Positions 14,636 to 29,207 of a stretch of DNA of 32,298 nucleotides are shown piece after piece (position 1 is the stretch's first letter; each line of letters opens with the position of its first letter). The notes under the pieces are model-generated. The model did not search any database. It was given only the letters and a program-made list of their open reading frames with translations, and was not told where the DNA came from. Position numbers and translations under genes: made by a program. The stretch is taken from the NCBI GenBank assembly GCA_030535375.1, contig JAUNJB010000005.1, forward strand, positions 1-32,298, given 5' to 3'. This DNA is from Clostridia bacterium. GTDB taxonomy: Bacteria > Bacillota > Clostridia > Christensenellales > Aristaeellaceae.

Positions 14636-15241
14636 ATGGTGGTGCAGGGCGTGGCAAGAGCGTTTACGCGGCAGGAGATGGACATTATCCGGCAGAGGCT
14701 GAAGGCCGCGGCGCGGCGGTATGCCGTGACGCAGGGGATGCGGAAGACAACCGTGGACGAGCTCGCCGTGGACGCGGGAATCTCCAAAGGGGCGTTTTAT
14801 AAGTTCTATCCCACCAAGGAAATGCTGTTTTTTGAAATCATGGAGGACATGCACGCGGAGGTTTACGGCGCGTCGGCCGCCGTTCTGGAGAAAAACGCCT
14901 GCCTTCCCGCGTCCCAGCGGGCGGCGCAGGCCGTGCTGACGGCCTGCGGGAAGATGGCGCAGACCGGCATGATGGATTTCATGGAGAGAGACGTTGCGCT
15001 GCTTCTGTGCAAGATCCCCATGGATGTACAGGAAAAGCATTTTCACAGCGACGAGGAGCATATCAAGCTGCTGCTGCAAAACGCCGGCCTGTCGCCGGAG
15101 GGCGGCGCGGAGCTGGCGGCGTCCACTGTGCGGGGGCTGTTTCTGACCATCGCGCATAGGGACAGCATAGGGGAGCTGTATCCGCAGGTGCTGGAGCTTC
15201 TGGTGAAGGGCGCCTGCCGACAGCTGTTTCCGGAGGATTGA
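14636..15241 (+). CDS. TetR/AcrR family transcriptional regulator
   Basis: 201 residues. The helix-turn-helix is clear: AAARRYAVTQGMRKTTVDEL, then AVDAGISKGAFYKFYPTKEM. The C-terminal part is the helical effector domain, which is too divergent to name a ligand. The start is uncertain: the ATG at 14636 is about 20 bases from the predicted transcript start and has no ribosome binding site; the GTG codons at 14639, 14642 and 14651 are alternatives. It precedes the hydrolase/membrane protein operon by 84 bases, and a separate promoter with the GTTAG-N6-CTAAC site lies between, so the operon can be read both through and apart from this gene. It probably represses itself and the genes that follow. 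Confidence 0.88.
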   Translation: MVVQGVARAFTRQEMDIIRQRLKAAARRYAVTQGMRKTTVDELAVDAGISKGAFYKFYPTKEMLFFEIMEDMHAEVYGASAAVLEKNACLPASQRAAQAVLTACGKMAQTGMMDFMERDVALLLCKIPMDVQEKHFHSDEEHIKLLLQNAGLSPEGGAELAASTVRGLFLTIAHRDSIGELYPQVLELLVKGACRQLFPED

Positions 15242-15266: not shown

Positions 15267-15295
15267 TTGACATGGAGTTAGCTTTTTCTAACGGA
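15267..15295 (+). promoter_or_regulatory. Internal promoter with GTTAG-N6-CTAAC operator (site 1)
   Basis: TTGACA (15267-15272) is followed by a weak -10 region near 15289-15295 (TAACGG). The palindrome GTTAG (15277-15281), CTTTTT, CTAAC (15288-15292) sits exactly between the boxes and enters the -10. A protein on this site would exclude RNA polymerase. The same palindrome recurs at 22436 and 26642, and with one mismatch at 22317. Confidence 0.7.
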
Positions 15296-15325
15296 TGTTC
15301 AATGATGACGGAGGAGGAAGAAGGT

Positions 15326-16507
15326 TTGACGATCCCGGAAGTGCATTTTAAAAGAGGAGATTATTCTCTCAATCCCGATCCCAATTACAATTTTCAGCTC
15401 AATCGTGTAATTCAGTGGGACGGCGGCAGGCTGGAGGATGTGCAGCCGGTGGCGGGGCGCATCAGAAGCAGCGAGGACTGGAAACGGGAGCTGGTTTTGC
15501 TTGGAGACAGGGCGCTGGCCGAAGAGCGGACGGAGAACGCCATCGCGTATTACCGCATGAGCGAGTTCTTCATGTATGACGGCGATCCCGATAAGAAGCG
15601 CTACTATCAAAAGGCCGCGGAGCTGTTTGCCGGGCACTATGCGGCATACTTTGACAACGGATGGGTCGAGAGGCTGGAGGCGCCCTATGAGGATGTCCGC
15701 CTGCCCATCATGCATGCGCGTCCGGAGGGGGAACGCAGGGATGTCATCGTCCTCCATGGAGGCAACGACAGCTACTACGAGGAGTTCTTCTTCCCGATGC
15801 TGTATCTGGCCAAGCATGGCTTTGAGGTCTATCTGTTTGAGGGGCCGGGACAGGGCGGCGTCGTCCGCGTGCAGGGAAAGAAATTCACCTATCAGTGGGA
15901 ACGGCCCGTGAAGGCCGTGCTCGATGTGATTGGCGAGACGGACGTGACGATCATGGGCGCTTCCCTGGGCGGGATGCTGGCCCCGAGGGCCGCCGCCTTT
16001 GATGACCGCATTCAGAGGGTGATCGGCTGGAGCGTGTTTCCCAACTTTTTGGATGTGGCTTTGTATGGGGAAATCCCGCCGTCGCTGCGGGGTGTGCTGC
16101 GCTTGATGATCGCGCACAGGCTCCGCCGGCCGATCAACGCCGTCATGAAAAAGAAGATGGCCGCGGAGCCCATCGTCGATTGGGCGATTCGCCATGGCAT
16201 GTACGCGTATGACGCACCCGATCCCTTTGGCTATATCAGGAAGCTTGACGATTTCAAGATGACGGACATCGGCCCGAAGATCACGCAGGATGTGCTGGTG
16301 ATTGGCGCAAGCCGGGATCATTTTATCCCCCAGGCGCTTTATAAGGCGGAGCTGGACGCATTGCCCAACGCGCGAAGCCTTACCTATCGGCTCTTTACCG
16401 AAAAGGAGGATGCCGGCGCGCATTGCAACGTGGGCAATCCCAAGCTTGTTCTGGATACGGTGATGGATTGGATCGTGGGGGTGAAGCGGAGGGATGAGCA
16501 TGTATGA
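15326..16507 (+). CDS. Alpha/beta hydrolase, FrsA-like
   Basis: About 393 residues from the TTG at 15326, which has GGAGGAGGAAGAAGG before it. An ATG at 15272 lies inside the promoter, and those at 15302-15305 lie at its expected start site without a binding site. The N-terminal 130 residues are helical. The hydrolase core then shows an oxyanion turn VLHGGND, the nucleophile elbow IMGASLGG (Ser about 213), an acid region GASRDHFIP and His in GAHCNVG. This layout is that of FrsA/2,6-dihydropseudooxynicotine hydrolase-type enzymes. It is soluble, with no signal peptide. The substrate is unknown. It is the first gene of an operon with an ATC hydrolase-like protein, a second serine hydrolase and three membrane proteins. 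Confidence 0.85.
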   Translation: MTIPEVHFKRGDYSLNPDPNYNFQLNRVIQWDGGRLEDVQPVAGRIRSSEDWKRELVLLGDRALAEERTENAIAYYRMSEFFMYDGDPDKKRYYQKAAELFAGHYAAYFDNGWVERLEAPYEDVRLPIMHARPEGERRDVIVLHGGNDSYYEEFFFPMLYLAKHGFEVYLFEGPGQGGVVRVQGKKFTYQWERPVKAVLDVIGETDVTIMGASLGGMLAPRAAAFDDRIQRVIGWSVFPNFLDVALYGEIPPSLRGVLRLMIAHRLRRPINAVMKKKMAAEPIVDWAIRHGMYAYDAPDPFGYIRKLDDFKMTDIGPKITQDVLVIGASRDHFIPQALYKAELDALPNARSLTYRLFTEKEDAGAHCNVGNPKLVLDTVMDWIVGVKRRDEHV

Positions 16508-16931
16508 GTCGAGGATCAGCGACGCCAGATGGATCGCTTACGACATCCCCGGGAATATCGGATGGATCGCATTTCTGGCGGGCATTGTCCTGTGCGTTGT
16601 CAAAGAGCCGCCAATCATGGAAAGCGGAACGATCCGTCTCCTGCTGCTGCCGGATATGCTCTGCGGTGCGGCCATGCTGATCGCGATTGCGGAGCTCATC
16701 GACGAGCGGATTCACAAGCTTGACCGCGTGCTGCCGAAGAAGCGCCTGTATCGCGGATTTGGCATGCTGGCGCTTGCCGGGCTCGTCGGAGGGGCCGTTT
16801 CGCTGGCGGCTCTGGGCGTTGCCGCCGCGGCTGGATTGGCGGGGAAGGCGTATCTGCTGCTCATGTGCGGCGGCGGTCTGCTCTGTCTGATCTTCGGCGG
16901 TCTGCTTTTCAGGGAGTATAAAGAGATCTGA
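16500..16931 (+). CDS. Small membrane protein of the hydrolase operon
   Basis: 143 residues with four hydrophobic segments (about 18-35, 44-65, 86-108 and 112-132) and charged ends. No family recognised. The start is taken at the ATG at 16500, with GGAGGG seven bases before it; an ATG at 16494 is too close to that site. It overlaps the upstream hydrolase stop by 8 bases, which implies translational coupling. Confidence 0.75.
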   Translation: MYESRISDARWIAYDIPGNIGWIAFLAGIVLCVVKEPPIMESGTIRLLLLPDMLCGAAMLIAIAELIDERIHKLDRVLPKKRLYRGFGMLALAGLVGGAVSLAALGVAAAAGLAGKAYLLLMCGGGLLCLIFGGLLFREYKEI

Positions 16932-16958
16932 GAGGGGCGCTTCGGCGGGGAGGGCGGA

Positions 16959-17618
16959 ATGAAATATACCTACTGTGAAGCGCTGATGTGGCGCCTGCTG
17001 ACACCGGCCATGTTCCGATGGCTGCGGACGCAAAGGCCCGAATGGGACATCGCGGAGCTCAGACGGGCGAGCAAGAGAACCTACCGCCGGATGGTGAGGC
17101 GGACGCCGGATATCGGCGGACTGTCCCGGAATTCGCTGCGCATCTGCCTTTCCAGCGGCATGGTCTTTCTTTCCGTTTACGAGGCGGCGGAGGGGAGGAT
17201 GGATGAGGCGTGCTTTGCCGGCATGGTGCTGGCCGGCATGGAGGCTCCGATCGTCAAGAGGTCCTTCCGCAAGAAGAGCCTGTTCACCGAGGAGGCGCAA
17301 AGAAAGCGCGCCGAAAACGCGGCAAGGGGCAACGCGCAGTCTGACAGCGCGCTGAACTGGAAAACCGAGGTCATCCCGGGGCGCGATGCCGATGAATGCA
17401 CGATCATCTATCATCAATGCGGGATATGCGCTTTGGGACGGCAGGAGAAGCTGCTGCATCTGGTGCCCCATATGTGCGTGCTGGACACGCTTTCGGTGGA
17501 ATGGATGGGCGGCGTGTTGTATCGAACGAAGACGCTTGCCGGCGGCGGGGACTGCTGCGACTTTTACATGTGCAAAAAGGGCTCAAAGTGGGATGCTGAA
17601 AGGGGCGGGACTGCGTGA
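16959..17618 (+). CDS. L-2-amino-thiazoline-4-carboxylate (ATC) hydrolase-like protein
   Basis: 219 residues, soluble. The C-terminal half carries the Cys/His pattern of the ATC_hydrolase family (Pfam PF14196 type): CTIIYHQCGICALGR, then HMCVLDTLSVEWMGGVL, and LAGGGDCCDFYMC at the end, with the conserved D of the VLD segment and the GGDxCDF motif. The founding enzyme opens a thiazoline ring in the Pseudomonas pathway that turns ATC into cysteine; most homologues are uncharacterised. The family is often found with TetR regulators and small membrane proteins. Here it lies between two membrane protein genes and shares an operon with two serine hydrolases. A role on a thiazoline-containing or thiol compound is a guess. 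Confidence 0.8.
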   Translation: MKYTYCEALMWRLLTPAMFRWLRTQRPEWDIAELRRASKRTYRRMVRRTPDIGGLSRNSLRICLSSGMVFLSVYEAAEGRMDEACFAGMVLAGMEAPIVKRSFRKKSLFTEEAQRKRAENAARGNAQSDSALNWKTEVIPGRDADECTIIYHQCGICALGRQEKLLHLVPHMCVLDTLSVEWMGGVLYRTKTLAGGGDCCDFYMCKKGSKWDAERGGTA

Positions 17619-18127
17619 ATTGGAGCAGAGTGATATTGGATGGTCTGGCCATGGCGGCGTATTTCAATCTGTTCGCCACGGTCATCGTGTTGGTTGATCC
17701 CAGGCTGATGATGTCCGGCTATCCGCGTTCCATCCAAAAAGCCGCGCCCTCGCCGCAGACCGGGAGGGAGCGAAGGATCTACCTCCTGTGGATGTATTTC
17801 GGGATGCTGCTGCCGCTGACCGTCTATGGTTCCCTCAGCCAGGTGAACGGGGGCATAGCCGGTTTTCAAAGCCTGTTCCGGGCGGCATACGCGCAGTGGC
17901 TCATCATCGGCTTCTCGGATTTCTTTTTGCTGGATATCCTCCTGCTGCAAAAACTGGGCCTGCGCGCCCGGATACCCGGCACGGAGGAGCATGAGGATTA
18001 CCGGCTGGGCAACTGGCTCAAAAAGCTGGCCGTACCGGAGCATTTTTTGGGCTGGCCCCTCGTGGTGGCGCCGGTGCTTTCGGTGATTCAGGCGGGTTTG
18101 GGGCTGCTGTGGGGCAAAATGGGCTGA
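17615..18127 (+). CDS. Small membrane protein of the hydrolase operon
   Basis: 170 residues with four hydrophobic segments (about 8-28, 57-75, 90-112 and 148-166). No family recognised. It begins at a GTG whose last bases form the TGA stop of the ATC hydrolase-like gene (GTGA overlap), with AAGGGGCGGG before it, so translation is coupled. The conserved-looking polar patch is the loop after the third segment. Confidence 0.72.
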   Translation: MNWSRVILDGLAMAAYFNLFATVIVLVDPRLMMSGYPRSIQKAAPSPQTGRERRIYLLWMYFGMLLPLTVYGSLSQVNGGIAGFQSLFRAAYAQWLIIGFSDFFLLDILLLQKLGLRARIPGTEEHEDYRLGNWLKKLAVPEHFLGWPLVVAPVLSVIQAGLGLLWGKMG

Positions 18128-18184
18128 GCAGCCGCGGAACGCGGTGCGCGGGGAACGGGCGCTTTGCCGGAAAGGAAGGAAAGC

Positions 18185-19093
18185 ATGAGCTTGATGTATG
18201 GGCTTCTCAAGCCAATCGTGAGGAAGCTGGTCAAGAACAGGGTGCATCAGGAGGAGAGCTATGAGGATTTTGTGCGCGTGTCGCATGAGATACAGGCGAA
18301 GTTCCGATTCAGGCTCCCCCAAATAAGGGGATATGAATTCCGAGACGAGCAGATCGGCGGATTTCACTGCATCGTCGGGCATAAGGCGGGAAGGACGCCC
18401 AAGCGGGCCTTGGTCTATTTTGTCGGCGGCGGGGAACGCAGGTGGCAGCTCCCTATGAAAAAATCCATGGCAAGGTATATGGAGGAGACGGACCGGGAGC
18501 TTTTCATCCCGCTGTATCCGCTCTATCCCGACTATAATATCGTGGATGAGGTGGAGATGATATGCAGCCTGCACCGCAGGATGCTGGAGCGGTATGAGGC
18601 GAAGGATATTGCCTGGCTGGGCTTTTCCGCGGGCGCTGACATGATCATGGCGACGGGCCGCTATATCGTCCGGCAGGGAAATCGGCTTCCTATGCCCGGT
18701 CTCATGATCCCCGTTTCGGGCTGCAACCTAAGCATTTCCGAGGAATCCTACGCGAGGATGCTGGAGATCGAAAAGCGGGATATGATGATGAATGCCGCGT
18801 CGATGAAGCTCTTTCCCGGGTTTTATAATCCGGGCGGAAAATATCCCGAATACCTCTGGGGATGCGCGGCGGAGGATGACTACACGGGCTTTCCCAGAAT
18901 CATCATGTACTTTGGCGGGGATGAGATATTCGCCGCGGAAGCGCCTGAATATGAAAAGGCGTTCAAGCGGTGCGGCGTGCCGGATTACACGATTCATGTG
19001 ACGCCCGGGATGTTTCACGCCTATCCCATGTTCTCTTTTTTGAAGGAGGGCAGACAGGGCGAAGATGAGATTATCGGCTATCTGAAGCAGTGA
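18185..19093 (+). CDS. Alpha/beta hydrolase (HSL-type esterase/lipase-like)
   Basis: 302 residues from the ATG at 18185 (GGAAAGGAAGGAAAGC upstream). It shows a complete serine hydrolase set: the oxyanion loop VYFVGGGERR (GGG in place of HGGG), the nucleophile elbow WLGFSAGAD (Ser about 148), the acid in MYFGGDEIF and the His in GMFHAYP. The order and the GDE/FHxYP pair are typical of hormone-sensitive-lipase-like enzymes that act on short acyl esters or amides. No signal peptide. It shares the operon with a different alpha/beta hydrolase, an ATC hydrolase-like protein and three membrane proteins. Substrate unknown. Confidence 0.85.
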   Translation: MSLMYGLLKPIVRKLVKNRVHQEESYEDFVRVSHEIQAKFRFRLPQIRGYEFRDEQIGGFHCIVGHKAGRTPKRALVYFVGGGERRWQLPMKKSMARYMEETDRELFIPLYPLYPDYNIVDEVEMICSLHRRMLERYEAKDIAWLGFSAGADMIMATGRYIVRQGNRLPMPGLMIPVSGCNLSISEESYARMLEIEKRDMMMNAASMKLFPGFYNPGGKYPEYLWGCAAEDDYTGFPRIIMYFGGDEIFAAEAPEYEKAFKRCGVPDYTIHVTPGMFHAYPMFSFLKEGRQGEDEIIGYLKQ

Positions 19094-19216
19094 GCGCGCA
19101 GCAGAGGACGCGTGTTGACCGGCGCTAAGGATGGCGGCGGGGGACCGGGGAGGACGGGATCTGCCCCGATGCGTTTCATACTGGAAAACCGAACCGATGT
19201 GAGACGGGGGAAGGAC

Positions 19217-19918
19217 ATGACGGTGAAAAGAAAAATACAAGCCGCACTTCTGTGCGGCATGCTGGGCTGTGTGTGCTTCGGCGCGGGCGACTGGCTGATG
19301 ATCTATGGCGATACGGCGCATTCGGGCGCCCTGGCCTGGCTGACGGAGGGGGCGGCCGCGATTGCCCCGTGGAGGAACGCCGTGGCCATGGCGCTGGCGT
19401 TCCCGGGGATTATTCTCTACGGCATCGCCCTGTTCGCCATTGCCGCATTTCTCAGGGAGGAAAAGCAGCGGCGGATTTATCATTATCTGACTGCGTTCGG
19501 CCTGACGCCATGGCTTGGGCTGCATCTGTTTTATATCATGATCCTGTATGGGTTTGCCTGGATGTCCGCCGGCGGGTATCAGGAGGGGGCGCTCGCGGCA
19601 TCGGAGGCGATGTTTGGCCACCTGTCCTGGGTCGTCATCCTCAGCGAGGCGCTGATGCTGCCGCCATATCTCTATTGGTTCTGGGTGCTTGCGCGGGGGA
19701 ACAGCGCCTTCCCCAAGAGGATGGCGCTGATCAATCCCCTCATCCTGTATGCCCTTCTCAAGCTGATCACGCTGCTCATGCCGGAAAGTGCGTTTCGGCT
19801 CGCCTTTACCAATGGCCTGATGAGCGAGAGCATGATCATCTGGTTTGCTGCGATGCTGGCGTGGAACGCGCGGCAAGGGCCGCGGGGCATGCGGCAGGCC
19901 CCTTCGCTTCCGCGCTAG
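19217..19918 (+). CDS. Polytopic membrane protein ending the hydrolase operon
   Basis: 233 residues from the ATG at 19217 (GGGGGAAGGAC upstream). About six hydrophobic segments. Distinct motifs: CFGAGDWLMIYGD after the first segment and the GLHLFYIMILYG segment in the middle; I think it belongs to an uncharacterised family of such proteins in Firmicutes but cannot name it with certainty. Its stop codon shares the bases CTAG (19915-19918) with the stop of the convergent gene, so no terminator separates them. Confidence 0.72.
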   Translation: MTVKRKIQAALLCGMLGCVCFGAGDWLMIYGDTAHSGALAWLTEGAAAIAPWRNAVAMALAFPGIILYGIALFAIAAFLREEKQRRIYHYLTAFGLTPWLGLHLFYIMILYGFAWMSAGGYQEGALAASEAMFGHLSWVVILSEALMLPPYLYWFWVLARGNSAFPKRMALINPLILYALLKLITLLMPESAFRLAFTNGLMSESMIIWFAAMLAWNARQGPRGMRQAPSLPR

Positions 19919-20859
19919 ACGGCAAAGCGGGAACAGCCGGTTGCCCCTGCGCCGTCGTGCGCGGAGGGCAGGTATTTGCGGTAAAGCGCGTAAAACTCCT
20001 CCGGCGAAACGGCGGAGAGCCACGGGGCGGACGCGATCATGCAGCTTTCCCCCTCCTGCGTGCTGTGCCCTTCGGCACAGGACGGGAAGAGAATCAGGTC
20101 GCCGTTTTGAACGTAGAAATTGCAGAGCTCGCGGCTCATGACGGCGTCCAGCACGCGGCGCGCGGCGGCCTCCGGGATGGAGCGGCGGGCGCAGATGTAG
20201 GAGGCGACGAGCACGGGGCCCTCCTGCGGCGTCACAAGGTGCGTCGCCATGCCGTCGGCGCGCAGCGCATAGAGGGAGGGAACGAGCGCGGTCTCTCTTT
20301 CGCCCGTGCGCACCTGCTGATAGGCGCCGATGGGCATGTCGGACACGCTGCCGCGCGCGAGAACGCGTTCGGCCGCATCCTTGCCATAGCGCTCCCAAAC
20401 GCTTTTGACGATGGACTTTGCCGCGGAGTTGTTGATGCCGCCAAAGGCGAGATCCTCGATCTCGGGAATCGGTTTTTTGCAGCCCTCCGGGTTTCTGGTG
20501 AAATAGACCATCGGAATGGCCGCGAAGGGGATGAGCGAGCGATCCCGCGTGCAGGCCGTCAGCACAGGCGAGGGACGAAGCGCGCTCCAGTCCCGGGCGG
20601 GATAAAGCCCGTCCCTGAAGCGGCTGAAGATCAGCGGATTTTCAAAGACCTCCAGGTCGGCGGAGACGATGACATCCGGCAGCACGGCGTCCCTTCGGGC
20701 GAGGTATTCCGACATGTGCTCGCCGTATCCGAGGCCGAAGCAGCGAACCTCCAATTCGATGCCGTCGTCTCTCAGCGCCTCCGCGATCCGGCGGAGGTAT
20801 TCCTTTTCCTGGCGATGCAGCACGCAGATGTGGTTCCAATAGAGTAAAACGTGAGTCAT
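19915..20859 (-). CDS. Binding-protein-like protein lacking a signal peptide, part of a GTPase/ATPase operon
   Basis: 314 residues. The fold looks like a type II periplasmic binding protein: an opening strand MTHVLLYWNH, a VIVSADLEVFENP segment, then FGGINNSAAKSIVKSVWERY and a hinge-like VSDMPIGAYQQVRTGE. There is no signal peptide or lipobox, so it should stay in the cytosol, unusual for this fold. It overlaps the ABC ATPase gene by 4 bases (ATGA) and ends the leftward operon. No permease gene is present. Possible roles: a cytosolic carrier or sensor for a metal or small anion, or a subunit of the ATPase complex. I am fairly sure of the gene, unsure of the function. Confidence 0.7.
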   Translation of the reverse strand: MTHVLLYWNHICVLHRQEKEYLRRIAEALRDDGIELEVRCFGLGYGEHMSEYLARRDAVLPDVIVSADLEVFENPLIFSRFRDGLYPARDWSALRPSPVLTACTRDRSLIPFAAIPMVYFTRNPEGCKKPIPEIEDLAFGGINNSAAKSIVKSVWERYGKDAAERVLARGSVSDMPIGAYQQVRTGERETALVPSLYALRADGMATHLVTPQEGPVLVASYICARRSIPEAAARRVLDAVMSRELCNFYVQNGDLILFPSCAEGHSTQEGESCMIASAPWLSAVSPEEFYALYRKYLPSAHDGAGATGCSRFAV

Positions 20860-21599
20860 GCGAGGTGCTCTCCCTTCCGCAAAAGCGTTTGATAGGTTCT
20901 TTGCAGCCGGTATTGGCGGCTGAGCTCTTCGTAAAGACGGGTCTCCCCGGCCGTTCGCCTGGGCGCCGCGATCATCGCGCCCGAGGACATGACGATGCGC
21001 CGCCCGGCCATGAGCGCGGTGTGCGGATCGTGCGTGACGACGAGGACGAGCTTATCCGCGCTTTGCAGATAGCGGAAGGCCTTTTCCTTGTCGATGCCCG
21101 CATTTTCGATCTCGTCGATCAGCACGATGGGGCTGTCGCAGACGCAGGCGATGTCGGCGATCATCAGCGCGCGGGACTGCCCGCCGCTCAGAAGATTCAG
21201 ATTTTGCCCGAGCAGGATGGGCTCGGGCGTGATGTCGTTCGCCATCCCGAGCGCCCTGGCCGGATCGATTTGCTTGTCCCGGCAGCGGGCGTGCAGCAGC
21301 AGGAATTCCTCGACGGTCGTATCCAGCACGAAGCGCATGTTCTGCCCCAGATGCGCGACGAGCCTGTCGGAGATGGCCTGGCGCTCGGCGCGGGCGACGC
21401 TTTGCCCGTTCAGCAGAATCCGGCGCCGCGATACGGAATCGCCGTCGGCCAGCTGCTCGACGTCCTTGATGAGCCGGCTTTTGCCGGAGCCCGTATGCCC
21501 GACGATGGTGATCAATTCGCCTCTGCGCATCGTGACGGAGGGAAGCGCCTCGGGGCGGCCGTCCTTGCCAAAGCCCGAAAGGATGGTGATGTCGTTCAT
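20856..21599 (-). CDS. Orphan ABC ATPase of the GTPase operon
   Basis: 247 residues. Walker A GHTGSGKS (about 34-41), Q-loop region GQNMRF, signature LSGGQ, Walker B IVLIDEIENAG and H-loop VVTHDPHT are all present. The Walker B is followed by ENAGIDKEKA rather than the usual PT-x-x-LD, a divergence from transporter ATPases. No transmembrane partner is encoded in the operon. It starts by ATGA overlap with the GTPase stop and ends by ATGA overlap with the binding-protein-like gene. Tight coupling of all three implies one complex or pathway, perhaps loading of a metal or cofactor. Confidence 0.85.
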   Translation of the reverse strand: MNDITILSGFGKDGRPEALPSVTMRRGELITIVGHTGSGKSRLIKDVEQLADGDSVSRRRILLNGQSVARAERQAISDRLVAHLGQNMRFVLDTTVEEFLLLHARCRDKQIDPARALGMANDITPEPILLGQNLNLLSGGQSRALMIADIACVCDSPIVLIDEIENAGIDKEKAFRYLQSADKLVLVVTHDPHTALMAGRRIVMSSGAMIAAPRRTAGETRLYEELSRQYRLQRTYQTLLRKGEHLA

Positions 21600-22297
21600 G
21601 GATTTGCCTCCCCGAAGTCGATCTTGCCGATGATGCCCTGCTGGAATGCCGCGCCGACGCGCGTTTCGCCCACGCAGTAGGAGCAGATGCCGCTGGGCAT
21701 CGTGTGGCGCAGCGTGTCGCCCTCAAAGCTCCGGCAGACCTCGCTTTCCAGGAGCCAATCGGCCAGGAGATCGACGCCGTATCCCACGAGGCCGTCCACA
21801 CGAAAGAGGACCGCGGAGGGGTTCAGGCGGCGGATATTCCAGCTGATGATTTCCAGCTCCGCCTGGGAGACCATGTCGATCTTTGTCAGCACGATGAAAT
21901 CCGCCTGCGTGAGCATGGGGCCGAGCTTATCGGGCGTCTTGCAGCTGGCGGTGCAGTCGAGCACGCAGCCGGCGATCATGCGCTGCGTGGCGGGGGAGCA
22001 GCGGTGGCAGAGCCCCGCCGTCTCGATGACGAGCGTATCGCATTGCCGGTTGTCCGCCCAGGCAAAGAGCTCCGGAAGATTGGAGACGAGAAAGTGATCC
22101 GGACAGATGTCGCCGCTCAGGCCTGTGACGCAGGGCAGGCCGAGACGGCCGTAAACCGCCGCGTCGTCCGAGTGCAGGCAGTCGATCTTGCAGACGCATG
22201 GATGCGTTCTGCCGGAAAGGAGCGGAAGAAGCCAGCGCAGCACGGCGGTTTTTCCGCATGCGGAAGCGCCGGAGAAGAGAAGGATTCGCTTTGGCAT
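21596..22297 (-). CDS. Cysteine-rich G3E family GTPase (HypB/UreG/CobW-like)
   Basis: 233 residues from the ATG at 22297 (GGAGG seven bases before it). P-loop GASACGKT (10-17), switch segment VIETAGLC and the guanine-specificity motif VLTKID are visible; this is the SIMIBI/G3E arrangement of metallochaperone GTPases. It is rich in paired cysteines: CVCKIDC (34-40), GLCHRC, DCTASC and GICSYC near residue 210, plausible sites for nickel, zinc or an iron-sulfur cluster. First gene of the leftward operon; its promoter region carries a near-perfect GTTAG-N6-CTTAC site. Probable role: GTP-driven metal delivery to an enzyme not in this window. The metal is unknown. Confidence 0.82.
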   Translation of the reverse strand: MPKRILLFSGASACGKTAVLRWLLPLLSGRTHPCVCKIDCLHSDDAAVYGRLGLPCVTGLSGDICPDHFLVSNLPELFAWADNRQCDTLVIETAGLCHRCSPATQRMIAGCVLDCTASCKTPDKLGPMLTQADFIVLTKIDMVSQAELEIISWNIRRLNPSAVLFRVDGLVGYGVDLLADWLLESEVCRSFEGDTLRHTMPSGICSYCVGETRVGAAFQQGIIGKIDFGEANP

Positions 22298-22316
22298 GGA
22301 GAACCTCCAAATTGTT

Positions 22317-22332
22317 GTAAGCATAGACTAAC
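22317..22332 (-). promoter_or_regulatory. Operator of the GTPase operon (site 2, one mismatch)
   Basis: On the minus strand GTTAG, TCTATG, CTTAC: 9 of 10 arm bases fit GTTAG-N6-CTAAC. A weak promoter fits around it (CTGACA near 22346-22351, 17 bases, TAGTCT), so the site would cover the -10 region and the start. It faces site 3, about 120 bases away, across the divergent intergenic region. Confidence 0.6.
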
Positions 22333-22400
22333 ATCATTTGCCCGGCCTGTCAGTATCATCTGAGACTGCGCGCGCAAAAAAAAGAGTTTGATGCAAAGGA

Positions 22401-22429
22401 TTGACTTTGTATCGTATTTATCGTAAAAT
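22401..22429 (+). promoter_or_regulatory. Sigma-A promoter of the Crp/Fnr-ABC importer operon
   Basis: TTGACT (22401-22406), 17-base spacer, TAAAAT (22424-22429); predicted start near 22436, which is the first base of operator site 3. Confidence 0.8.
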
Positions 22430-22435
22430 AACTAC

Positions 22436-22451
22436 GTTAGAATGCGCTAAC
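22436..22451 (+). promoter_or_regulatory. Operator of the Crp/Fnr-ABC importer operon (site 3)
   Basis: GTTAG (22436-22440), AATGCG, CTAAC (22447-22451), flanked by C and G so that the palindrome extends one base more on each side. It covers the start of transcription, 14 bases before the start codon of the Crp/Fnr gene. Such placement usually gives repression. Confidence 0.75.
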
Positions 22452-22464
22452 GAGGGGGGAAGAG

Positions 22465-23127
22465 ATGGACGAAATCGCGCGGGCCCTGTCCCTGTCCAGT
22501 CTGTTTGCCGGATGTGATGCGGCGAAGCTGCGGTTTGAGCTGAGGCGCTTTCCCTCCGGACGCATGCTGTCGGATTGCCCCGCCGGCGTATCCAGCGTGG
22601 GGCTTGTGACCAAGGGACGCGTGGACGTGTATTCCGTTGCGCTGGACGGGCGGGACGTGCTGCTCAGCTCGCTTGGCGCGGGGGAATGCTTCGGCATCTG
22701 CAACCTGCTGGCGGACGGCGAGATGGAAACCGTGCTTCGCTGCGGCGTGGATACGCACATCGCATATATCTCCAAATCGTGCCTGCTCGGGCTGCTGCAT
22801 GAGGATGTGGAGTTCGCGCTCAGATATGCGGCGCTGTGCAACGAGAAGCTGCAGTTTCTCCTCGGCAAGATCGAGTTGCTGACCGTGCAGTCCTGCCGGG
22901 GAAAGCTGATCTCGTGGCTGACCCTGCACGCGGATGCCCGGGGCATGGTGGCGTGGAAGGCTTCGCGCGATGAGCTGGCGCGCCATCTGAGCGTCAGCCG
23001 GGCGGCGCTGTTTCGCGAGCTGGGAAGCCTGCAGGAGTGCGGAGCGGTGAGGGCGCAGGAAAACGGGTTTCAGATCCTCGACAGGCAGCGCCTGGAGGAT
23101 CGGATGAGGGAAACCGAAAACGCATGA
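22465..23127 (+). CDS. Crp/Fnr family transcriptional regulator
   Basis: 220 residues; ATG with GAGGGGGGAAGAG before it. N-terminal cyclic-nucleotide-binding-like beta roll (VGLVTKGRVDVYSV, then LGAGECFGICNLLADGE), a long dimer helix (about 115-145), and a C-terminal winged helix: ASRDELARHLSVSRAALFRELGSLQ. In CRP the recognition helix begins SRETVGR; here it is SRAALFR, so the Glu that reads the TGTGA half-site is Ala and a different site is expected. It has several cysteines but not the FNR cluster pattern. The palindrome GTTAG-N6-CTAAC at its own start site has Crp/Fnr spacing, so self-regulation is likely. It heads the operon with an ABC importer and an AraC regulator. Confidence 0.9.
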   Translation: MDEIARALSLSSLFAGCDAAKLRFELRRFPSGRMLSDCPAGVSSVGLVTKGRVDVYSVALDGRDVLLSSLGAGECFGICNLLADGEMETVLRCGVDTHIAYISKSCLLGLLHEDVEFALRYAALCNEKLQFLLGKIELLTVQSCRGKLISWLTLHADARGMVAWKASRDELARHLSVSRAALFRELGSLQECGAVRAQENGFQILDRQRLEDRMRETENA

Positions 23128-23188
23128 CGGATTTAGCCGCCGGGTGCGGCATGAATCTTCATAAATGTAGAAAGGAAGGAACCCCTAT

Positions 23189-24157
23189 ATGAAAAAGATC
23201 ATTTCTGTGATGATCGCTGCGGTGCTGCTCTGCGTGTGCGCCGCTGCGATGGCGGACATGAACATTGTTGCCCTGAGCGGCCCGACTGCGATGGGCATGG
23301 TACAGATGATGAATGAGGCCGAGGAGGGCGGCAGCCTGGAGGAGCGCGGCTACAGCTTCACCATCGCCTCGGCGGTGGACGAGGTATCCCCGATGATCGT
23401 GCAGGGAACGACCGATATCGCGGCCGTGCCGGCGAATCTGGCCTCCGTGCTGTACAACAAGACCGAGGGCGGCGTGCAGGTGCTGGCCGTCAACACGCTC
23501 GGCGTGCTCTACATCGTGGAGAACGGCGAGAGCGTTCAGTCCGTTGAGGATCTGCGCGGCAGGACGATCTATGCCAGCGGAAAGGGCGCGACGCCGGAGT
23601 ACGCGCTCAATTACATCCTTTCCAGCAATGGCATCGATCCGGAAAAGGACGTGACGATCGAGTGGAAGAGCGAGCACGCCGAGTGCCTCTCCACGATCCT
23701 CGCGGAGGAGAACGGGGTTGCCATGCTGCCCCAGCCGTTTGTGACGACCGCGCAGACGAAGAGCGAGGCGATCCGCGTCGCACTGGATCTGACCGCGGAG
23801 TGGGATGCCCTGCAGGCCGATGTCGAAAACCCGAGCGCGCTGATTACCGGCGTGGTCATCGCCCGCAAGGCGTTTGTCGAGGAGAACCCGGATGCGGTGA
23901 AGGCGTTCATGGAGGATTACAAGGCCTCCGTCGAATTCGTCAACAGCAGCAACGACGAGGCCGCGGCGCTGGTGGGCAAGTACGGCATCGTGCCGGAGGC
24001 CGTGGCGCAGAAGGCGCTTCCCGCGTGCAATATCGTGTTTATCGAGGGCGGCGAGATGCAGGAGAAGCTGGAGGGATATCTCTCTGTGCTGCTTGAGCAG
24101 AATGCTACATCCGTCGGCGGCAAGCTGCCGGAGGCCGACTTCTACTACGCGCAATAA
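23189..24157 (+). CDS. ABC transporter solute-binding protein (NitT/TauT/ThiY type)
   Basis: 322 residues; ATG behind AAAGGAAGGAA. Signal peptide of about 22 residues, cleavage after AAAMA, no convincing lipobox. The mature part is a small two-lobe binding protein of the NMT1/SsuA class: MNIVALSGPTAMGMVQ at the start, VQGTTDIAAVPANLASVL near 70, DLRGRTIYASGKGATPEY near 125, and a VVIARKAFVEENPDAV stretch near 230. Together with the next two genes it forms a nitrate/sulfonate/thiamine-precursor-type importer. Similar transporters next to Crp/Fnr genes have no assigned substrate; the regulon here points to a metal chelate or related small molecule (inference). Confidence 0.88.
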   Translation: MKKIISVMIAAVLLCVCAAAMADMNIVALSGPTAMGMVQMMNEAEEGGSLEERGYSFTIASAVDEVSPMIVQGTTDIAAVPANLASVLYNKTEGGVQVLAVNTLGVLYIVENGESVQSVEDLRGRTIYASGKGATPEYALNYILSSNGIDPEKDVTIEWKSEHAECLSTILAEENGVAMLPQPFVTTAQTKSEAIRVALDLTAEWDALQADVENPSALITGVVIARKAFVEENPDAVKAFMEDYKASVEFVNSSNDEAAALVGKYGIVPEAVAQKALPACNIVFIEGGEMQEKLEGYLSVLLEQNATSVGGKLPEADFYYAQ

Positions 24158-24180
24158 GGCGACAACAGCAAAACAGGCAT

Positions 24181-24202
24181 ATGCTCTCCGCACGGGGAGC
24201 AT
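24181..24202 (+). terminator. Intercistronic hairpin between binding protein and permease
   Basis: ATGCTCTCC (24181-24189), GCAC, GGGGAGCAT (24194-24202): 9-bp stem with one G-T wobble, then TTTGCTTTC. Its place, right after a binding-protein gene, is the same as that of the hairpin at 1983-2019. Partial termination or mRNA protection would give excess binding protein. Confidence 0.6.
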
Positions 24203-24225
24203 TTGCTTTCTAAATCGGGAGTGCG

Positions 24226-24975
24226 ATGATGAAAAAAAGGAAAATTAAGCTGTGGGCGGTCATCAGCTGGCTGCTCGTCTGGCAGGCGTGCAGCATGGCG
24301 GTGAAAAGCGACATCTTTCTGGTGTCGCCGCTGCGCGTGGTGAGCAGGCTCTTTGAACTCGCCGTGACGGCGAAGTTCTGGCAATCCATCGGCTTTTCGC
24401 TGGCGCGCATCGGCAGCGGGTTCCTGCTGGCGATGTGCTGCGGCATTGTGCTGGCGGCGCTGGCCGCGCGCTATTCGCGCATAGAGGAGCTGCTGGCCCC
24501 CGCCGTTCTGGCGATCAAGACGATTCCCGTGGCTTCGTTCATCATTCTGGCGCTCATCTGGTTTTCCTCCAGGAACCTCGCCGTGCTGATCTCGTTTTTG
24601 ATGGTTTTGCCGATCATATACACGAATGTGCTCGATGGCATACGGGCCGTAAAGCCCGAAATGCTGGAGATGGCGGCGCTCTTTCGCATTCCGGCGGTGA
24701 CCAGGGTGCGCTGCGTCTATCTGCCGGAGGTCATGCCGTTCTTTCGCTCGGGCTGCACGGTGGCCTTGGGGCTCTGCTGGAAATCCGGCATTGCGGCGGA
24801 GGTCATCGGCGTGCCCAAGGGCTCCATCGGCGAGCATTTGCAGCAGGCGAAGATCTATCTGGAGACGCCGGATCTGTTTGCCTGGACGATTGTGATCGTG
24901 CTGGTGAGCGTGCTTTTTGAAAAGATCATCCGGCTGCTCCTGGACAGACTGGCCGCGCGCCTGATGGAGGTGTGA
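24226..24975 (+). CDS. ABC transporter permease (NitT/TauT type)
   Basis: 249 residues with six hydrophobic segments. The cytoplasmic EAA-like loop that docks the ATPase is seen at about residues 147-166 (EMAALFRIPAVTRVRCVYLP). The SPLRVVSRLFELA segment after the first membrane span is typical of SsuC/ThiX-like permeases. Starts at ATG 24226 and overlaps the downstream ATPase region by GTGA. Forms the importer with the binding protein and the ATPase beside it. Confidence 0.9.
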   Translation: MMKKRKIKLWAVISWLLVWQACSMAVKSDIFLVSPLRVVSRLFELAVTAKFWQSIGFSLARIGSGFLLAMCCGIVLAALAARYSRIEELLAPAVLAIKTIPVASFIILALIWFSSRNLAVLISFLMVLPIIYTNVLDGIRAVKPEMLEMAALFRIPAVTRVRCVYLPEVMPFFRSGCTVALGLCWKSGIAAEVIGVPKGSIGEHLQQAKIYLETPDLFAWTIVIVLVSVLFEKIIRLLLDRLAARLMEV

Positions 24976-24977
24976 AC

Positions 24978-25592
24978 GTGGGCGATATCGTCATCAAAAA
25001 TCTGAATAAAGCGTTTGATGGAAAGCCCGTGCTGCGCAATCTGTCGCTGCGGATTCCCTCGGGGCGGTGCTTTGCGATCATGGCGCCGTCCGGATACGGG
25101 AAGACGACGCTGCTTCGCATACTGATGGGCTTTGAACGGGCGGACAGCGGCAGCATTGACGGGCTTGAGGGACAGCGCCTCAGCGCGGTTTTCCAGGAGG
25201 ACAGGCTATGCGAGCATCTTTCCGCGCTGCAGAATATCCGGCTTGTGCGCCCCGAACTGCCGAGGGATGCGATGGTCGGGGCGCTCCGGAACGTGGGCCT
25301 CGCGGATTGCTGCGATCAGCCCGTGCGGGAGCTCTCCGGCGGCATGCGAAGGCGCGCCGCGCTTGTGCGGGCGCTGATGGCCCAATATGATGTGCTTATC
25401 CTGGATGAGCCGTTCAAGGGGCTGGATGAGGAGACGAAGGCGCTTGTCATCCGGGAGACCAGGGAGAGGATCGCGGGAAAGACGGCTGTGATGGTGACGC
25501 ACGATCCCAAGGAGGCCGAAGCCATGGGCGCGGAGGTTGTGGCGCTTGAAAGCGCGGCGGATGTGCAGCCCGGCGAGAGGCCGGCGGAATGA
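24978..25592 (+). CDS. ABC transporter ATP-binding protein (NitT/TauT type)
   Basis: 204 residues from the GTG at 24978, seven bases after GGAGG; the GTG at 24972 overlaps the permease stop but is too close to that site. Walker A APSGYGKTT (about 35-43), signature LSGGM, Walker B VLILDEPFKGLDEE, H-loop MVTHDPKEA. At 204 residues it is shorter than usual (about 240-260), mostly because the N-terminal and C-terminal extensions are trimmed; all motor motifs are kept. It drives the importer formed by the two upstream genes. The next gene (AraC) starts in its stop codon. Confidence 0.9.
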   Translation: MGDIVIKNLNKAFDGKPVLRNLSLRIPSGRCFAIMAPSGYGKTTLLRILMGFERADSGSIDGLEGQRLSAVFQEDRLCEHLSALQNIRLVRPELPRDAMVGALRNVGLADCCDQPVRELSGGMRRRAALVRALMAQYDVLILDEPFKGLDEETKALVIRETRERIAGKTAVMVTHDPKEAEAMGAEVVALESAADVQPGERPAE

Positions 25593-26581
25593 ACGGAAAG
25601 CGATGGGACAGCGTGGAGGAAAGGACATACGAGGAAGAGGCGTTTGGGCAACGGGCCCGCAGGCTGAGCGAGCAGGGCGAAAAGGTGGTCTATCGGATTG
25701 ACTGTGATACCGGCATGGGGATCATCACGGATTACCGGCTGTTTCCGGGGATCAGCCTGCAGTTTAACGAGATTTGCGGCAGCGCACTGCCGGAGCAGCC
25801 GTGCAAAGCGCCCCTTTTGGAACTCAACTACTGTGAAAAGGGGCAGTATGAGTGCGAATTCAGCCGGGGCGGCTGCGCATGCCTGCGTGAGGGAGGCTTT
25901 GCCGCCAGCAGCCAGAACGAGCGCAAGATCCGCTCCCATTTCCCGCTGGAAACCTATGTGGGCATCAGCGTGCTGATTGACGTGTCCAGGGCGCAGCGCT
26001 TTGTTTCCGCCCATTATCCGGAGCTTTCCCTGTGCCTTGACGCTTTGCCGGAACGCCTCTGCCCGGAGCATACCTGCCTGAGCCTGCCGGATCACAACCG
26101 GATCCGGGAGATCTTCAGGCAGATATACGACGTGCCCGCGGCGGTGGAGGCGCCGGCATACTACCGAGTCAAGGTGCTGGAGCTTCTTCTCCTGCTGACC
26201 TCGATCAGGCCGTGTCCGTCCGCGTGTGTGCACTATCTCAAGGGGGACAGAAAGGCGCTGATGGAGCAAATCCGGCTGCGCCTGCAGCAGACGCTTGACG
26301 AGGAGCTTCCGCTCCGCGGCGTTGCGGAGACATACGGCATCTGCCTCAGCGTGCTCAGGCGGGATTTTACGCGGCTTTACGGCCTCGGCCCCGGCGCGTA
26401 TCGCAGACGCTGCCGGATGCAGGCAGCCGCGAGAATGCTTGTGGGCACGGATCTGCCCGTCACGGACATCGCCGCGCAGGTGGGCTACCGAAACGCCAGC
26501 AAGTTTTCATCGGCGTTTCGGGAAGAGATGGGAAAGACACCTGCGGCTTACCGAAAAACGCACGGCGTTTTGGAGCATTGA
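25589..26581 (+). CDS. AraC family transcriptional regulator
   Basis: 330 residues, starting by ATGA overlap with the ABC ATPase. The C-terminal 100 residues carry the double helix-turn-helix: LPLRGVAETYGICLSVLRRDF and then DIAAQVGYRNASKFSSAFRE, the second one a strong AraC signature ending KTPAAYR. The N-terminal domain (GMGIITDYRLFPGISLQFNE, then LLELNYCEKGQYECEF) is like that of the other AraC protein at 31102-32052, and both resemble YbtA-type regulators that sense siderophores. It probably activates the importer or a linked metallophore system when its ligand is bound. Confidence 0.9.
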   Translation: MNGKRWDSVEERTYEEEAFGQRARRLSEQGEKVVYRIDCDTGMGIITDYRLFPGISLQFNEICGSALPEQPCKAPLLELNYCEKGQYECEFSRGGCACLREGGFAASSQNERKIRSHFPLETYVGISVLIDVSRAQRFVSAHYPELSLCLDALPERLCPEHTCLSLPDHNRIREIFRQIYDVPAAVEAPAYYRVKVLELLLLLTSIRPCPSACVHYLKGDRKALMEQIRLRLQQTLDEELPLRGVAETYGICLSVLRRDFTRLYGLGPGAYRRRCRMQAAARMLVGTDLPVTDIAAQVGYRNASKFSSAFREEMGKTPAAYRKTHGVLEH

Positions 26582-26604
26582 GGCGGAATGAGGCCGTTCA
26601 GGAG

Positions 26605-26661
26605 TGGCAAAGCGGCTGGAGATGGGGTAAAATCCCTTTTAGTTAGAATAAGCTAACTAAA
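26605..26661 (+). promoter_or_regulatory. Promoter and operator of the ZinT-like gene (site 4)
   Basis: A weak -35 (TGGCAA, 26605-26610) and a good -10 TAAAAT (26628-26633) are followed by the longest copy of the palindrome: TTTAGTTAG (26638-26646), AATAAG, CTAACTAAA (26653-26661), 9-bp perfect arms with core GTTAG-N6-CTAAC at 26642-26657. The site lies over the predicted start of transcription, as at site 3. Direct reading; the binding protein is inferred. Confidence 0.75.
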
Positions 26662-26682
26662 TAAATGGAAAGGGTGTTTCAT

Positions 26683-27369
26683 ATGAAGAATTGCTTTGCA
26701 TCCGTGATGGCCGTATTCCTTCTGGCCTGTCTGCTGGTGGTATCCTCCGCCGTGGCGGAGGAGGCGGTCAATCCCGAGGCGCTGCTTGATGAACTGACCG
26801 GCACGTATGACGAGCTGTTTACGACCATCTGCGCGCCGGAATACGACGACATTTGGCTGGAGCGCTGCGCGCAGTACGTCGGTGCAGAGAATGCGGAGGC
26901 CGTCGCCGCGATGCTCAAGGGCGCATGCGTGGGCGAGATTTACGGCCAGGAGGCCGTCGATGCCTACACGGCCGCGCCGGAGAGCACGGTGTTTGACTGC
27001 TTCTTCATCAACGGGGTAAACCAGTTTGTCTTTAGCGGCAGCCGGATCAGCGGCCTTGACAAAGAGGGCAATGTGGTGTTTGACCATGACTACCGGTATG
27101 TGGAGACCGTGGAAGGGATTTTCACACCGTACATCTACAAGACCGATGATGCGGATGCGGGCGAATTCACCTACGTCTGTCTGGCGCCCGACACCCCGGA
27201 GGGCACGTTCCACATCGAGTTCCGCTATGGCGGCGATCTTGAAGCGCTCAAGCAGGCGTATGAAGGGCCCTATGCCTATTGGCTGGCGGCGGGCATTCCT
27301 GCCGATGCGGACGCCGAGATGATCTACAACTGCATCGATCTCTTCTGCTCGGAGAACGCGGCGGAGTGA
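26683..27369 (+). CDS. Secreted ZinT/AdcA-like metal-binding protein
   Basis: 228 residues from the ATG at 26683, with GGAAAGGG eight bases before it. Signal peptide of about 25 residues ending SSAVA. The mature protein is strongly acidic. Its C-terminal part (EGTFHIEFRYGGDLEALK, then GPYAYWLAAGIPAD, ending CIDLFCSEN) looks like the HFHI...Gx...WPTYYP region that ends ZinT and the ZinT part of AdcA, in which His residues bind zinc outside the membrane. Only some of the classical His ligands are evident, so it could bind another metal. It is alone between site 4 and a terminator. A secreted metal carrier under the same operator as the importer and GTPase operons fits a metal-starvation response. 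Confidence 0.6.
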   Translation: MKNCFASVMAVFLLACLLVVSSAVAEEAVNPEALLDELTGTYDELFTTICAPEYDDIWLERCAQYVGAENAEAVAAMLKGACVGEIYGQEAVDAYTAAPESTVFDCFFINGVNQFVFSGSRISGLDKEGNVVFDHDYRYVETVEGIFTPYIYKTDDADAGEFTYVCLAPDTPEGTFHIEFRYGGDLEALKQAYEGPYAYWLAAGIPADADAEMIYNCIDLFCSENAAE

Positions 27370-27449: not shown

Positions 27450-29204
27450 TCAGGAGGCGGTGATTTTCCAGCCCTCGGCCTGTCTGCGCACCTCGGCAAA
27501 GCGCCTGTACAGGCCGTCCTCGCCGATCAGCTGCGCGTGCGTGCCCTGCTGGACGATGCGTCCGTCCTGCACGACCAGGATCTGGTCGGCGTTTTCGATG
27601 GTGGCCAGCCGGTGGGCGATGGTGACGACGGTCTTTTTGCGCGTCAGCTCTGCCAGTGCGGCCTGGATGAGATGCTCATTCTCCGGATCGATGCTGGCCG
27701 TGGCCTCGTCCAGGATGACGATGGGCGCGTCCTTGAGGATGGCGCGCGCGATGGAGATGCGCTGGCGCTCCCCGCCGGAGAGCGTGCCGCCGCCCTCGCC
27801 GATTACGGTGTCGTAGCCGTTGGGCAGGGCCATGATGAAATCGTGACACTGCGCCTTTTTGGCTGCGGCGATCATCTCCGCCTCGGTCGCGCCGGGCCTG
27901 CCAAAGCAGATGTTCTGGCGGATGGTGTCGTGGAACAGATACACGTTCTGGAACACCATGGAGATGTTCTTTAAAAGGCTGTCGCAGGTGAACTCCCGCA
28001 CGTCGTGGCCTCCGATGCGGATGCAGCCGCTGTTGACATCATAGAATCGGGCGATCAGGTTGCAGATGGTGGTCTTGCCGCTGCCCGACGGGCCGACGAT
28101 CGCGGTGGATGTGCCCTCGGGCATGGAAAAGCTCACATCGCGGAGCACGTCGCCCTCCCCGTAGCCAAAGCGGACGCGGTCAAAGGTGATGTCAAACCGG
28201 CGGAGCGGGATATCCCGGCCGTCCCTGTCGATGTAGTGCTGTTCCTTGAGGGCGTCCAGCTGGTCCATGGCGTGATCGATGATGCTCAGCACATGGGCGC
28301 TGTCGCTGATGGATTCCACCCCCGCAAAGATGCCGAAGGAGAGGAAGGCAAACATCAGCATCAGAGGAAGCGCCATCTGTCCGGCGAGGCCCATGGAAAT
28401 CGCCGCGGCGGCCAGAGCGACCGAGGCGGTCTTGAGCGCCAGCAGATGCAGGCAGTTGGCGGGGGTGTAGCCCCATTCGATATCCAGATTGACCTTGCGG
28501 CTCTCGGCGCAGGCGTCCGCCAGGGAGGCCATGGCCGCGCCGCCCTGGCCGAAGGATTTGACCGTGGCCAGGCCGCGCGCATATTCCAGTGTGGCGGCGG
28601 TCAGGTCGCGCTCCGCCTGTGTGGCCCTCGGCGCGAACCGCGCGCTGTGACGGCCGATGAGCAGCAGAAACAGGAAGGAGACTGCCGCGCCCGCCAGCGC
28701 GATCAGCGCCGTTTTGGGGCTGATGACCGCCAGAGACAGAAAGATGCACAGAAAATTGAGATAGCCGCCCACAAAGGTATCCACCATGCGCATGCCCATG
28801 TTTTCCAGCGTGTTCAGCCCCGTGGTGATGGCGTTCAGGATGCTGCCGGTGTCCATCTGCTGGAAATAGCCGAGGGACACGCGCTTGAGCGCGTCTCCGA
28901 TGGCCAGCCTGTCCCGCGCCACCAGCTCGTAGCCGATTGTCTCCTGGAATTTGGAGCGCATGTAGTCAAACAGAAAGCGCAGAAAAACCAGTATGGCGAT
29001 GATCAGGAGGCTGAGCCAGGTCCAGCGGGAGTCGAAGGAAACGCCGTCCCGGGCGGATTCGATGAGCATGCCGACGGTATATGCCGCGATCATCACAGGG
29101 CCTGCGGCGAACCAGGTGGAGAAAAAGGAAAAGACGAAGCCGATGTAGAGATTCCTGCGGAAGGAACCGCACCAACGGATAATTCTGGCGATGGTTCTGA
29201 ACAT
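27450..29204 (-). CDS. ABC half-transporter, second subunit of a YbtPQ/IrtAB-like pair
   Basis: 584 residues: a six-span membrane domain (about 15-310) joined to a nucleotide-binding domain with Walker A GPSGSGKTT, signature LSGGERQR, Walker B VILDEATASIDPENEH and H-loop TIAHRLA. DEATAS-x-DPENE is typical of the siderophore-related YbtPQ/IrtAB branch of exporters-by-fold, some of which import ferric siderophores. It begins 3 bases after the first subunit ends, so the two surely form a heterodimer. The operon lies under an AraC regulator of YbtA type. Transport direction cannot be settled from sequence. Confidence 0.9.
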   Translation of the reverse strand: MFRTIARIIRWCGSFRRNLYIGFVFSFFSTWFAAGPVMIAAYTVGMLIESARDGVSFDSRWTWLSLLIIAILVFLRFLFDYMRSKFQETIGYELVARDRLAIGDALKRVSLGYFQQMDTGSILNAITTGLNTLENMGMRMVDTFVGGYLNFLCIFLSLAVISPKTALIALAGAAVSFLFLLLIGRHSARFAPRATQAERDLTAATLEYARGLATVKSFGQGGAAMASLADACAESRKVNLDIEWGYTPANCLHLLALKTASVALAAAAISMGLAGQMALPLMLMFAFLSFGIFAGVESISDSAHVLSIIDHAMDQLDALKEQHYIDRDGRDIPLRRFDITFDRVRFGYGEGDVLRDVSFSMPEGTSTAIVGPSGSGKTTICNLIARFYDVNSGCIRIGGHDVREFTCDSLLKNISMVFQNVYLFHDTIRQNICFGRPGATEAEMIAAAKKAQCHDFIMALPNGYDTVIGEGGGTLSGGERQRISIARAILKDAPIVILDEATASIDPENEHLIQAALAELTRKKTVVTIAHRLATIENADQILVVQDGRIVQQGTHAQLIGEDGLYRRFAEVRRQAEGWKITAS

Positions 29205-29207
29205 GGT

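Follow-up and report, generated by a model that had tools for sequence, protein, structure and literature searches.

A palindrome before predicted iron genes in a genus of gut Clostridia, and its candidate DtxR-family reader

The window analysed here is a 32,298-bp stretch of contig JAUNJB010000005.1 from a Clostridia bacterium, and our subject is a palindrome, GTTAG-N6-CTAAC (N6, six unspecified bases; hereafter the box), that stands before several of its operons. We argue that the box is probably read by P0001, a DtxR-family protein and putative iron-sensing repressor encoded elsewhere in the same genome, for which it would be a one-dimer operator before genes of a predicted iron regulon. 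The boxes and genes at issue are listed below; numbers prefixed L, C and G are our handles for loci, contigs and genomes.

15277..15292, no strand assigned: exact box GTTAGCTTTTTCTAAC, 9 bp upstream of the ATG (15302) of the alpha/beta-hydrolase/ATC-hydrolase/DUF6796 operon
22317..22332, no strand assigned: one-mismatch box GTAAG-N6-CTAAC before the G3E GTPase/ABC (ATP-binding cassette) ATPase operon; candidate site
22436..22451, no strand assigned: exact box at the point where transcription of the Crp/Fnr-ABC-AraC operon is predicted to start
26642..26657, no strand assigned: exact box before the gene of a secreted ZinT-fold protein
14636..15241, + strand: TetR-family regulator gene (PF00440), directly upstream of the 15277 box
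15302..19918, + strand: hydrolase operon (PF12697, PF14196, PF07859, PF20599), in the order alpha/beta hydrolase, unknown, ATC_hydrolase (16959-17618), unknown, alpha/beta hydrolase (18164-19093), DUF6796 (19112-19918)
19915..22324, - strand: operon of a G3E/CobW-type GTPase (ATG 22300), an ABC ATPase and P0002 (PF02492, PF00005)
19915-20859, - strand: P0002, binding-protein-like; some relatives carry SBP_bac_6 (PF13343)
22465..26581, + strand: Crp/Fnr operon, with Crp/Fnr (22465-23127), an NMT1/SsuA-type binding protein, a permease, an ABC ATPase and AraC (25589-26581)
26665..27369, + strand: P0004, secreted protein with ZinT fold (structure model, mean predicted local distance difference test score 88)
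27450..31034, - strand: exporter-fold ABC pair, YbtP/IrtA-like at least over 29208-31034

All four copies that a preliminary description of this stretch had reported, three of them exact and one with a mismatch, are where it placed them; at 22317-22332 the mismatch falls in one arm, GTAAG. If up to two mismatches are allowed, the window contains 5 matches against 3.2 in shuffled sequence, and therefore the exact copies alone are informative within it. Each copy was also said to lie on a promoter. This holds for two of them: the -10 element of a promoter-like pair at 22401-22429 lies 6 bp upstream of the 22436 box, which itself stands 13 bp before the Crp/Fnr start, and that of a pair at 26604-26633 lies 8 bp upstream of the 26642 box, positions that fit repression. 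The placement between promoter elements at 15277 is not borne out, since a scan of 15200-15320 found no promoter-like pair; a terminator-like hairpin (15244-15259) separates this box from the TetR gene. Similarly, three of the four promoters that had been joined into one regulon carry exact boxes, whereas the fourth, at 22317, belongs to a one-mismatch class that shows no excess in the genome.

The genome-wide scan suggested in that description was run over the 3.30 Mb (265 contigs) of the genome, with the pattern read backwards, that is, the reversed palindrome, as the control here and throughout. The exact palindrome occurs 18 times, against once for the control. The 18 copies are spread over 16 promoter regions, about 5-208 bp from the assumed gene start, where four of the assumed starts (L021, L022, L025 8588 and L026) were non-start codons, and where an earlier in-frame start codon would bring some or all of the box into the open reading frame at L016, at 15277 of the window, at L021 and at L022. 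None of the 18 lies within a gene stretch matched to a protein family. Copies with exactly one mismatch show no overall excess in the genome (18 versus 42 for the control), so that the copy at 22317 is unsupported by number; we reject such copies as a general class of sites and do not score them as sites absent further support. A single variant, ATTAG/CTAAT, makes up 10 of these 18 copies, where 1.2 would be expected.

Which genes follow the boxes? Exact copies precede the gene for FTR1 and that for AhpC with an AhpF-like protein, and two exact copies lie before DUF3793 and flavodoxin in a region shared with thioredoxin. On C20 and C47, exact copies stand before exporter-fold ABC genes, and others stand before another ATC_hydrolase, another DUF6796, and TetR, SBP_bac_1 and alpha/beta-hydrolase genes. 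Among the one-mismatch copies, one precedes feoB, two lie between feoA (identified by place and size, with no NCBIfam match) and the dtxR gene that encodes P0001, and one precedes a permease gene that we read as FecCD without a family scan. Together, these neighbours form a predicted iron regulon: FTR1, flavodoxin/DUF3793, YbtP/IrtA-like ABC proteins and AhpC, with feoAB and dtxR behind one-mismatch boxes. Pyruvate formate-lyase is boxed as well, by two exact copies and one one-mismatch copy (L023:6382-6587 and 8007-8022); we had considered this protein as NrdD, and rejected that assignment because it is a formate C-acetyltransferase. Among relatives, 26 of the 40 stretches with an exact site in G002, G006, G023 and part of G004 encode a relative of a target from the window's own genome, as judged by tblastn.

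The boxes are conserved where these genes recur. In the genus, the exact pattern occurs 159 times against 29 for the control over 29 genomes. DUF3793 was found in 20 of the 29, and its promoter carries an exact box at 16 of 18 readable loci (control, 1 of 18; the misses are L247 and L254), with two exact boxes in 11 and an exact plus a one-mismatch box in 3. For feoA, found in 16 of the 29 genomes (17 matches, of which L272 is the weakest and perhaps not feoA), all 16 readable loci have a box with one mismatch or none, the box being exact in 6, and none of the 16 has the control. Three loci at contig ends were dropped from these two promoter counts, and some of the feoA promoters are the same as those in the DtxR set considered next.

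P0001 is a protein of 172 residues encoded on contig C181, and it is the only protein of its genome above the cut-off of PF02742, the metal-binding and dimerisation domain of the DtxR superfamily (53.1 bits, cut-off 27). Its gene is divergent from feoA/feoB; the two one-mismatch boxes mentioned above lie between them and the third before feoB. Among 41 DtxR loci, the genome's own and 40 from relatives, feoB is divergent in 15; in every one of these, the 280-292 bp examined upstream contain a box with at most one mismatch, as they do in 2 of the 26 loci without a divergent feoB; the reversed control was applied here to the 8-base core only (1 of 41 versus 9 of 41). On contigs of named genomes, a box is found at 6 of 7 feo-linked DtxR loci (the exception is L211) and at 2 of 69 others, with the reversed control at none of 76. 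This set comprises the best 80 of 571 loci, of which 4 were dropped, and 4 of its 7 feo-linked loci are records of genomes already among the 41. At L062, L064, L066, L070, L073 and L074, from six genus genomes, the feo-dtxR promoter has GTTTG-N6-CTAAC, an arm absent from the genome's own exact set.

Three metal ligands of the IdeR/DtxR iron subgroup are in place: Cys102, Glu105 and His106 correspond to C142, E145 and H146 of P0001, which are invariant in 10 proteins of the genus, and the stretch DAC..EH recurs in 12 feo-linked proteins of relatives. A second DtxR-like protein of the genome (contig C142; L273:4652-6267; 33% identity) reads DARLLAH in this stretch; we reject it as the reader, for its ligands are lost and no box, even with one mismatch allowed, occurs on its 7.7-kb contig. 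Its gene directly follows a CDF cation-efflux-like gene and a TetR-like gene.

The occurrence of P0001 and that of the motif also go together. Of the 28 other genomes of the genus, 24 have an ortholog with 61-83% identity. Beyond the genus, a P0001 homologue is present in 73 genomes, which together contain 211 copies against 96 for the control, whereas 18 genomes without one have 18 against 39 (Fisher p 2e-7). The preliminary description had kept a metal repressor of Fur or DtxR class, encoded elsewhere, as its main alternative, and the data favour the DtxR class.

Several observations weigh against P0001 as the reader, or against iron as the common theme. Four genus genomes (G001, G007, G012 and G013, 76-84% complete) show an excess of the motif without a P0001 match, as does G049 outside the genus (80% complete; 8 versus 1). 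Outside the genus, genomes with any Crp/Fnr homologue, nearly all remote, also have more motif (157 versus 67 for the control, and 72 versus 68 in genomes without one), so the comparison there is not clean by itself. In 26 of the 41 DtxR loci the gene is not beside feoB and is mostly boxless, and therefore autoregulation is not general. The position of the Met10 ligand is Asn in the genus and Asp in some relatives, as in MntR. Fourteen of the 40 site stretches in relatives contain no relative of a target from the window's own genome by tblastn. Finally, pyruvate formate-lyase is boxed, yet the account of C. difficile in PMC6311696 has pfl lowered at low iron; we have therefore dropped this gene as proof of iron sparing. 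(Here and below, statements on published systems follow excerpts of the papers concerned.)

The closest described counterpart of the box is the operator of IdeR/DtxR, the regulators of iron in Actinobacteria. Their 19-bp site, TTAGGTTAGSCTAACCTAA (PMC8464063), shares with it the repressor family, the TTAG/CTAA arms and a 14-bp register, and in both systems the box lies near the start site of iron genes. An IdeR dimer covers two CCTAA repeats, and a single dimer binds half of the box and other targets with comparable affinity (PMC8464063, PMC10317159); the one-dimer consensus of 14 bp is TTAGGNNNNCCTAA (PMC8464063), and where IdeR represses, its box overlaps the -10 region or the start of transcription (PMC8464063, PMC10317159). 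GTTAG-N6-CTAAC keeps the register of the one-dimer site TTAGG-N4-CCTAA as TTAG-N6-CTAA. Unlike that site, it avoids the inner G after TTAG, which occurs in 3% of half-sites in the window's own genome and in 4% of those in relatives (from 18 and 50 sites, respectively); it has an outer G/C in the palindrome, and its consensus has no second, overlapping dimer site. The protein differs as well. Its match ends at DtxR residue 128 of 226, with no SH3-like third domain, and the recognition helix reads SRPTVSI in P0001 and SGPTVSQ in DtxR. In 12 feo-linked relatives (3 of the 15 were left out of the residue comparison because of the reading frame), the position of Gln43, which in IdeR contacts the base pair of the inner G, is Ile, Val, Phe, Tyr or Arg, and that of Gly38 is Arg or Lys; our guess is that this Arg or Lys reads the outer G. 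The match between helix and operator is a correlation only, because IdeR Q43A still binds.

When Fe2+ is sufficient, a metal-loaded dimer of P0001 would sit on the box, covering the start site or the -10 region, and block transcription. The sequences show how many boxes there are, where they lie, how far they are conserved, which gene families adjoin them and that they track the DtxR homologue; binding, metal and direction of control are inferred. When iron drops, P0001 would leave the box, and feoAB, FTR1, the FecCD-like permease, the YbtP/IrtA-like ABC proteins, flavodoxin, peroxide defence and its own gene would come on. In the window, the members would be the hydrolase/ATC-hydrolase operon, the Crp/Fnr-ABC-AraC operon and the ZinT-fold protein, and the Crp/Fnr protein would serve as a second, local layer of control on its own transporter operon.

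Which metal would P0001 sense? Two features speak for iron, the Cys at position 102 and the nature of the target genes; with Asn or Asp at position 10, manganese stays in view. P0001 might thus read the same box as an MntR-like regulator that senses Mn2+ or several metals. Like the MntR of B. subtilis and E. coli, it is a short protein of the DtxR family without the SH3 domain; its best NCBIfam match is to MntR, though under the cut-off (93 bits versus 153), as is its match to the IdeR/DtxR equivalog NF053665 (50.6 bits versus 290), and its closest solved chain is MntR, 2h09. A ZinT-fold member also hints at a wider role in metals. However, MntR has Glu at the position of Cys102, where all 10 aligned genus proteins have Cys, and the targets include feoAB, FTR1 and flavodoxin; no manganese transporter was noticed among the annotated targets, though no search aimed at one was made. 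We therefore regard sensing of manganese or of several metals as unlikely.

Fur is a natural suspect, in that two Fur-family genes are present in the genome and both C. difficile and C. acetobutylicum control iron through Fur. Yet the stretches of 9.0 and 6.0 kb around the two genes contain no box with at most one mismatch, and the site in C. acetobutylicum has a different sequence, which makes it very improbable that either protein reads the box.

The preliminary description had favoured the Crp/Fnr protein at 22465, before which an exact box lies at 13 bp. CRP sites have a 5-6-5 geometry, which also counts in its favour, as does the weak correlation of the motif with remote homologues. However, a close ortholog occurs in just 2 of the 29 genus genomes, the window's own and G020, and the other 27 still show the motif in excess (134 versus 26; 24 above control, 3 equal), rather than only alongside the regulator gene. 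G020, moreover, retains both genes, that for Crp/Fnr at 43% and that for the binding protein at 74%, and the first 9 kb of the contig contain no box with at most one mismatch. The genus counts and G020 together lead us to reject this protein as a general reader: persistence of the motif without the Crp/Fnr gene, in step with a Fur/DtxR gene, had been named as the outcome that would overturn the idea, and it is the outcome found, with a DtxR homologue. On this sequence evidence, the Crp/Fnr gene is a predicted target of the palindrome and not its reader, a role in which we consider it next to negligible. That a TetR-family protein reads the box is scarcely credible: TetR genes adjoin boxes in the window, at L020 and L022, and by tblastn likeness at L120, L127 and L149 of relatives, but they are different paralogs, and no adjoining TetR was noticed, without a systematic check, at the conserved feoA and DUF3793 boxes of the genus.

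With P0001 as the probable reader, a genus of uncultured gut Clostridia appears to keep its iron regulon under a DtxR-family protein, where Fur would be expected. Streptococci have iron-responsive DtxR-type proteins. There are thus exceptions to the rule stated in a 2023 review, by which iron in low-GC Gram-positives is the domain of Fur and DtxR proteins are confined to manganese (PMC10317159). The Fur regulon of C. difficile (PMC6311696) overlaps in its targets, with iron and siderophore transporters and flavodoxin, and differs in regulator family, in site and in the direction of pfl. The regulon had been called undescribed, and within open-licence PMC papers we likewise recognised no published description: the motif, in several spellings, was not found, and no DtxR iron regulon in Clostridia was recognised. 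Its site is of the one-dimer kind recently shown for IdeR, and the recognition helix and operator, having changed together, offer a ready case for work on protein-DNA specificity. DUF3793, DUF6796, ATC_hydrolase, the ZinT-fold protein and the exporter-fold ABC pairs, all little known, gain a testable role in iron starvation.

The secreted protein had been described as ZinT-like, and its fold agrees: all 9 PDB matches of the P0004 model with E <= 0.001 are ZinT/YodA/AdcA (template-modelling score, by query, 0.47-0.49), where a sequence search of the PDB gave no match. In alignment A2, His183 is invariant and His141 nearly so. In G002, a ZinT-like relative (44%) is co-directional with flavodoxin downstream of two boxes, and the ZinT-fold protein may therefore be a standing member of the regulon.

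The likeness of the ABC proteins to the importers YbtPQ and IrtAB is judged among half-size chains, because two-half eukaryotic pumps score higher in total when both halves match. L017:6168-7940 scores 307 bits with YbtP and 295 with IrtA versus about 240 with Sav1866/BmrA, L016:8882-10714 scores 347 and 329 versus 272 with MsbA, and 29208-31034 of the window scores 333 and 268 versus 243 with Sav1866; for 27450-29204, the scores do not separate importers from MsbA. A bolder, rather doubtful proposal is that a distinct DtxR subclass (SH3-less, Asn-Cys ligands, Arg/Lys helix) replaced Fur as the iron master of a gut-Clostridia clade, that its operator was rewritten from TTAGG-N4-CCTAA to GTTAG-N6-CTAAC, and that its regulon serves siderophore piracy, through YbtP/IrtA-like import, breakdown by ATC-hydrolase-type (thiazoline-opening) and alpha/beta hydrolases, and extracellular iron binding by the ZinT-fold protein. 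That ATC hydrolases might act on siderophores is speculative.

A few observations remain on the neighbouring genes. The GTPase of the operon at 22317 has only remote relatives (22-25% identity; a search of 119 other genomes found them in 6), and we do not use its conservation as support for that box; P0002 has no obvious signal peptide by eye. The binding protein of the Crp/Fnr operon matches the TIGR01728 subfamily under the model cut-off. No exact box lies upstream of the exporter-fold ABC pair at 27450..31034. Exact-boxed FTR1 genes at L145 (G023:C35) and L275 (G004:C135), the latter assigned by reading its translation, are divergent from a second DtxR paralog with 35-36% identity to P0001. 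At L036:4755-4770, a one-mismatch box, ATTAG-N6-CTAAC, precedes a cluster of NADH-dehydrogenase/hydrogenase-like subunits, named by eye. The GTAAG variant of 22317 recurs as GTAAGTCTCCCCTAAC at C47:33529, in the divergent promoter of an AraC-like gene and one exporter-fold ABC pair, and an exact box at C47:38137 precedes another such pair. Contig C47 clusters three exporter-fold ABC pairs with AraC-type and TetR genes (window 27450-32052 and L017:540-9672).

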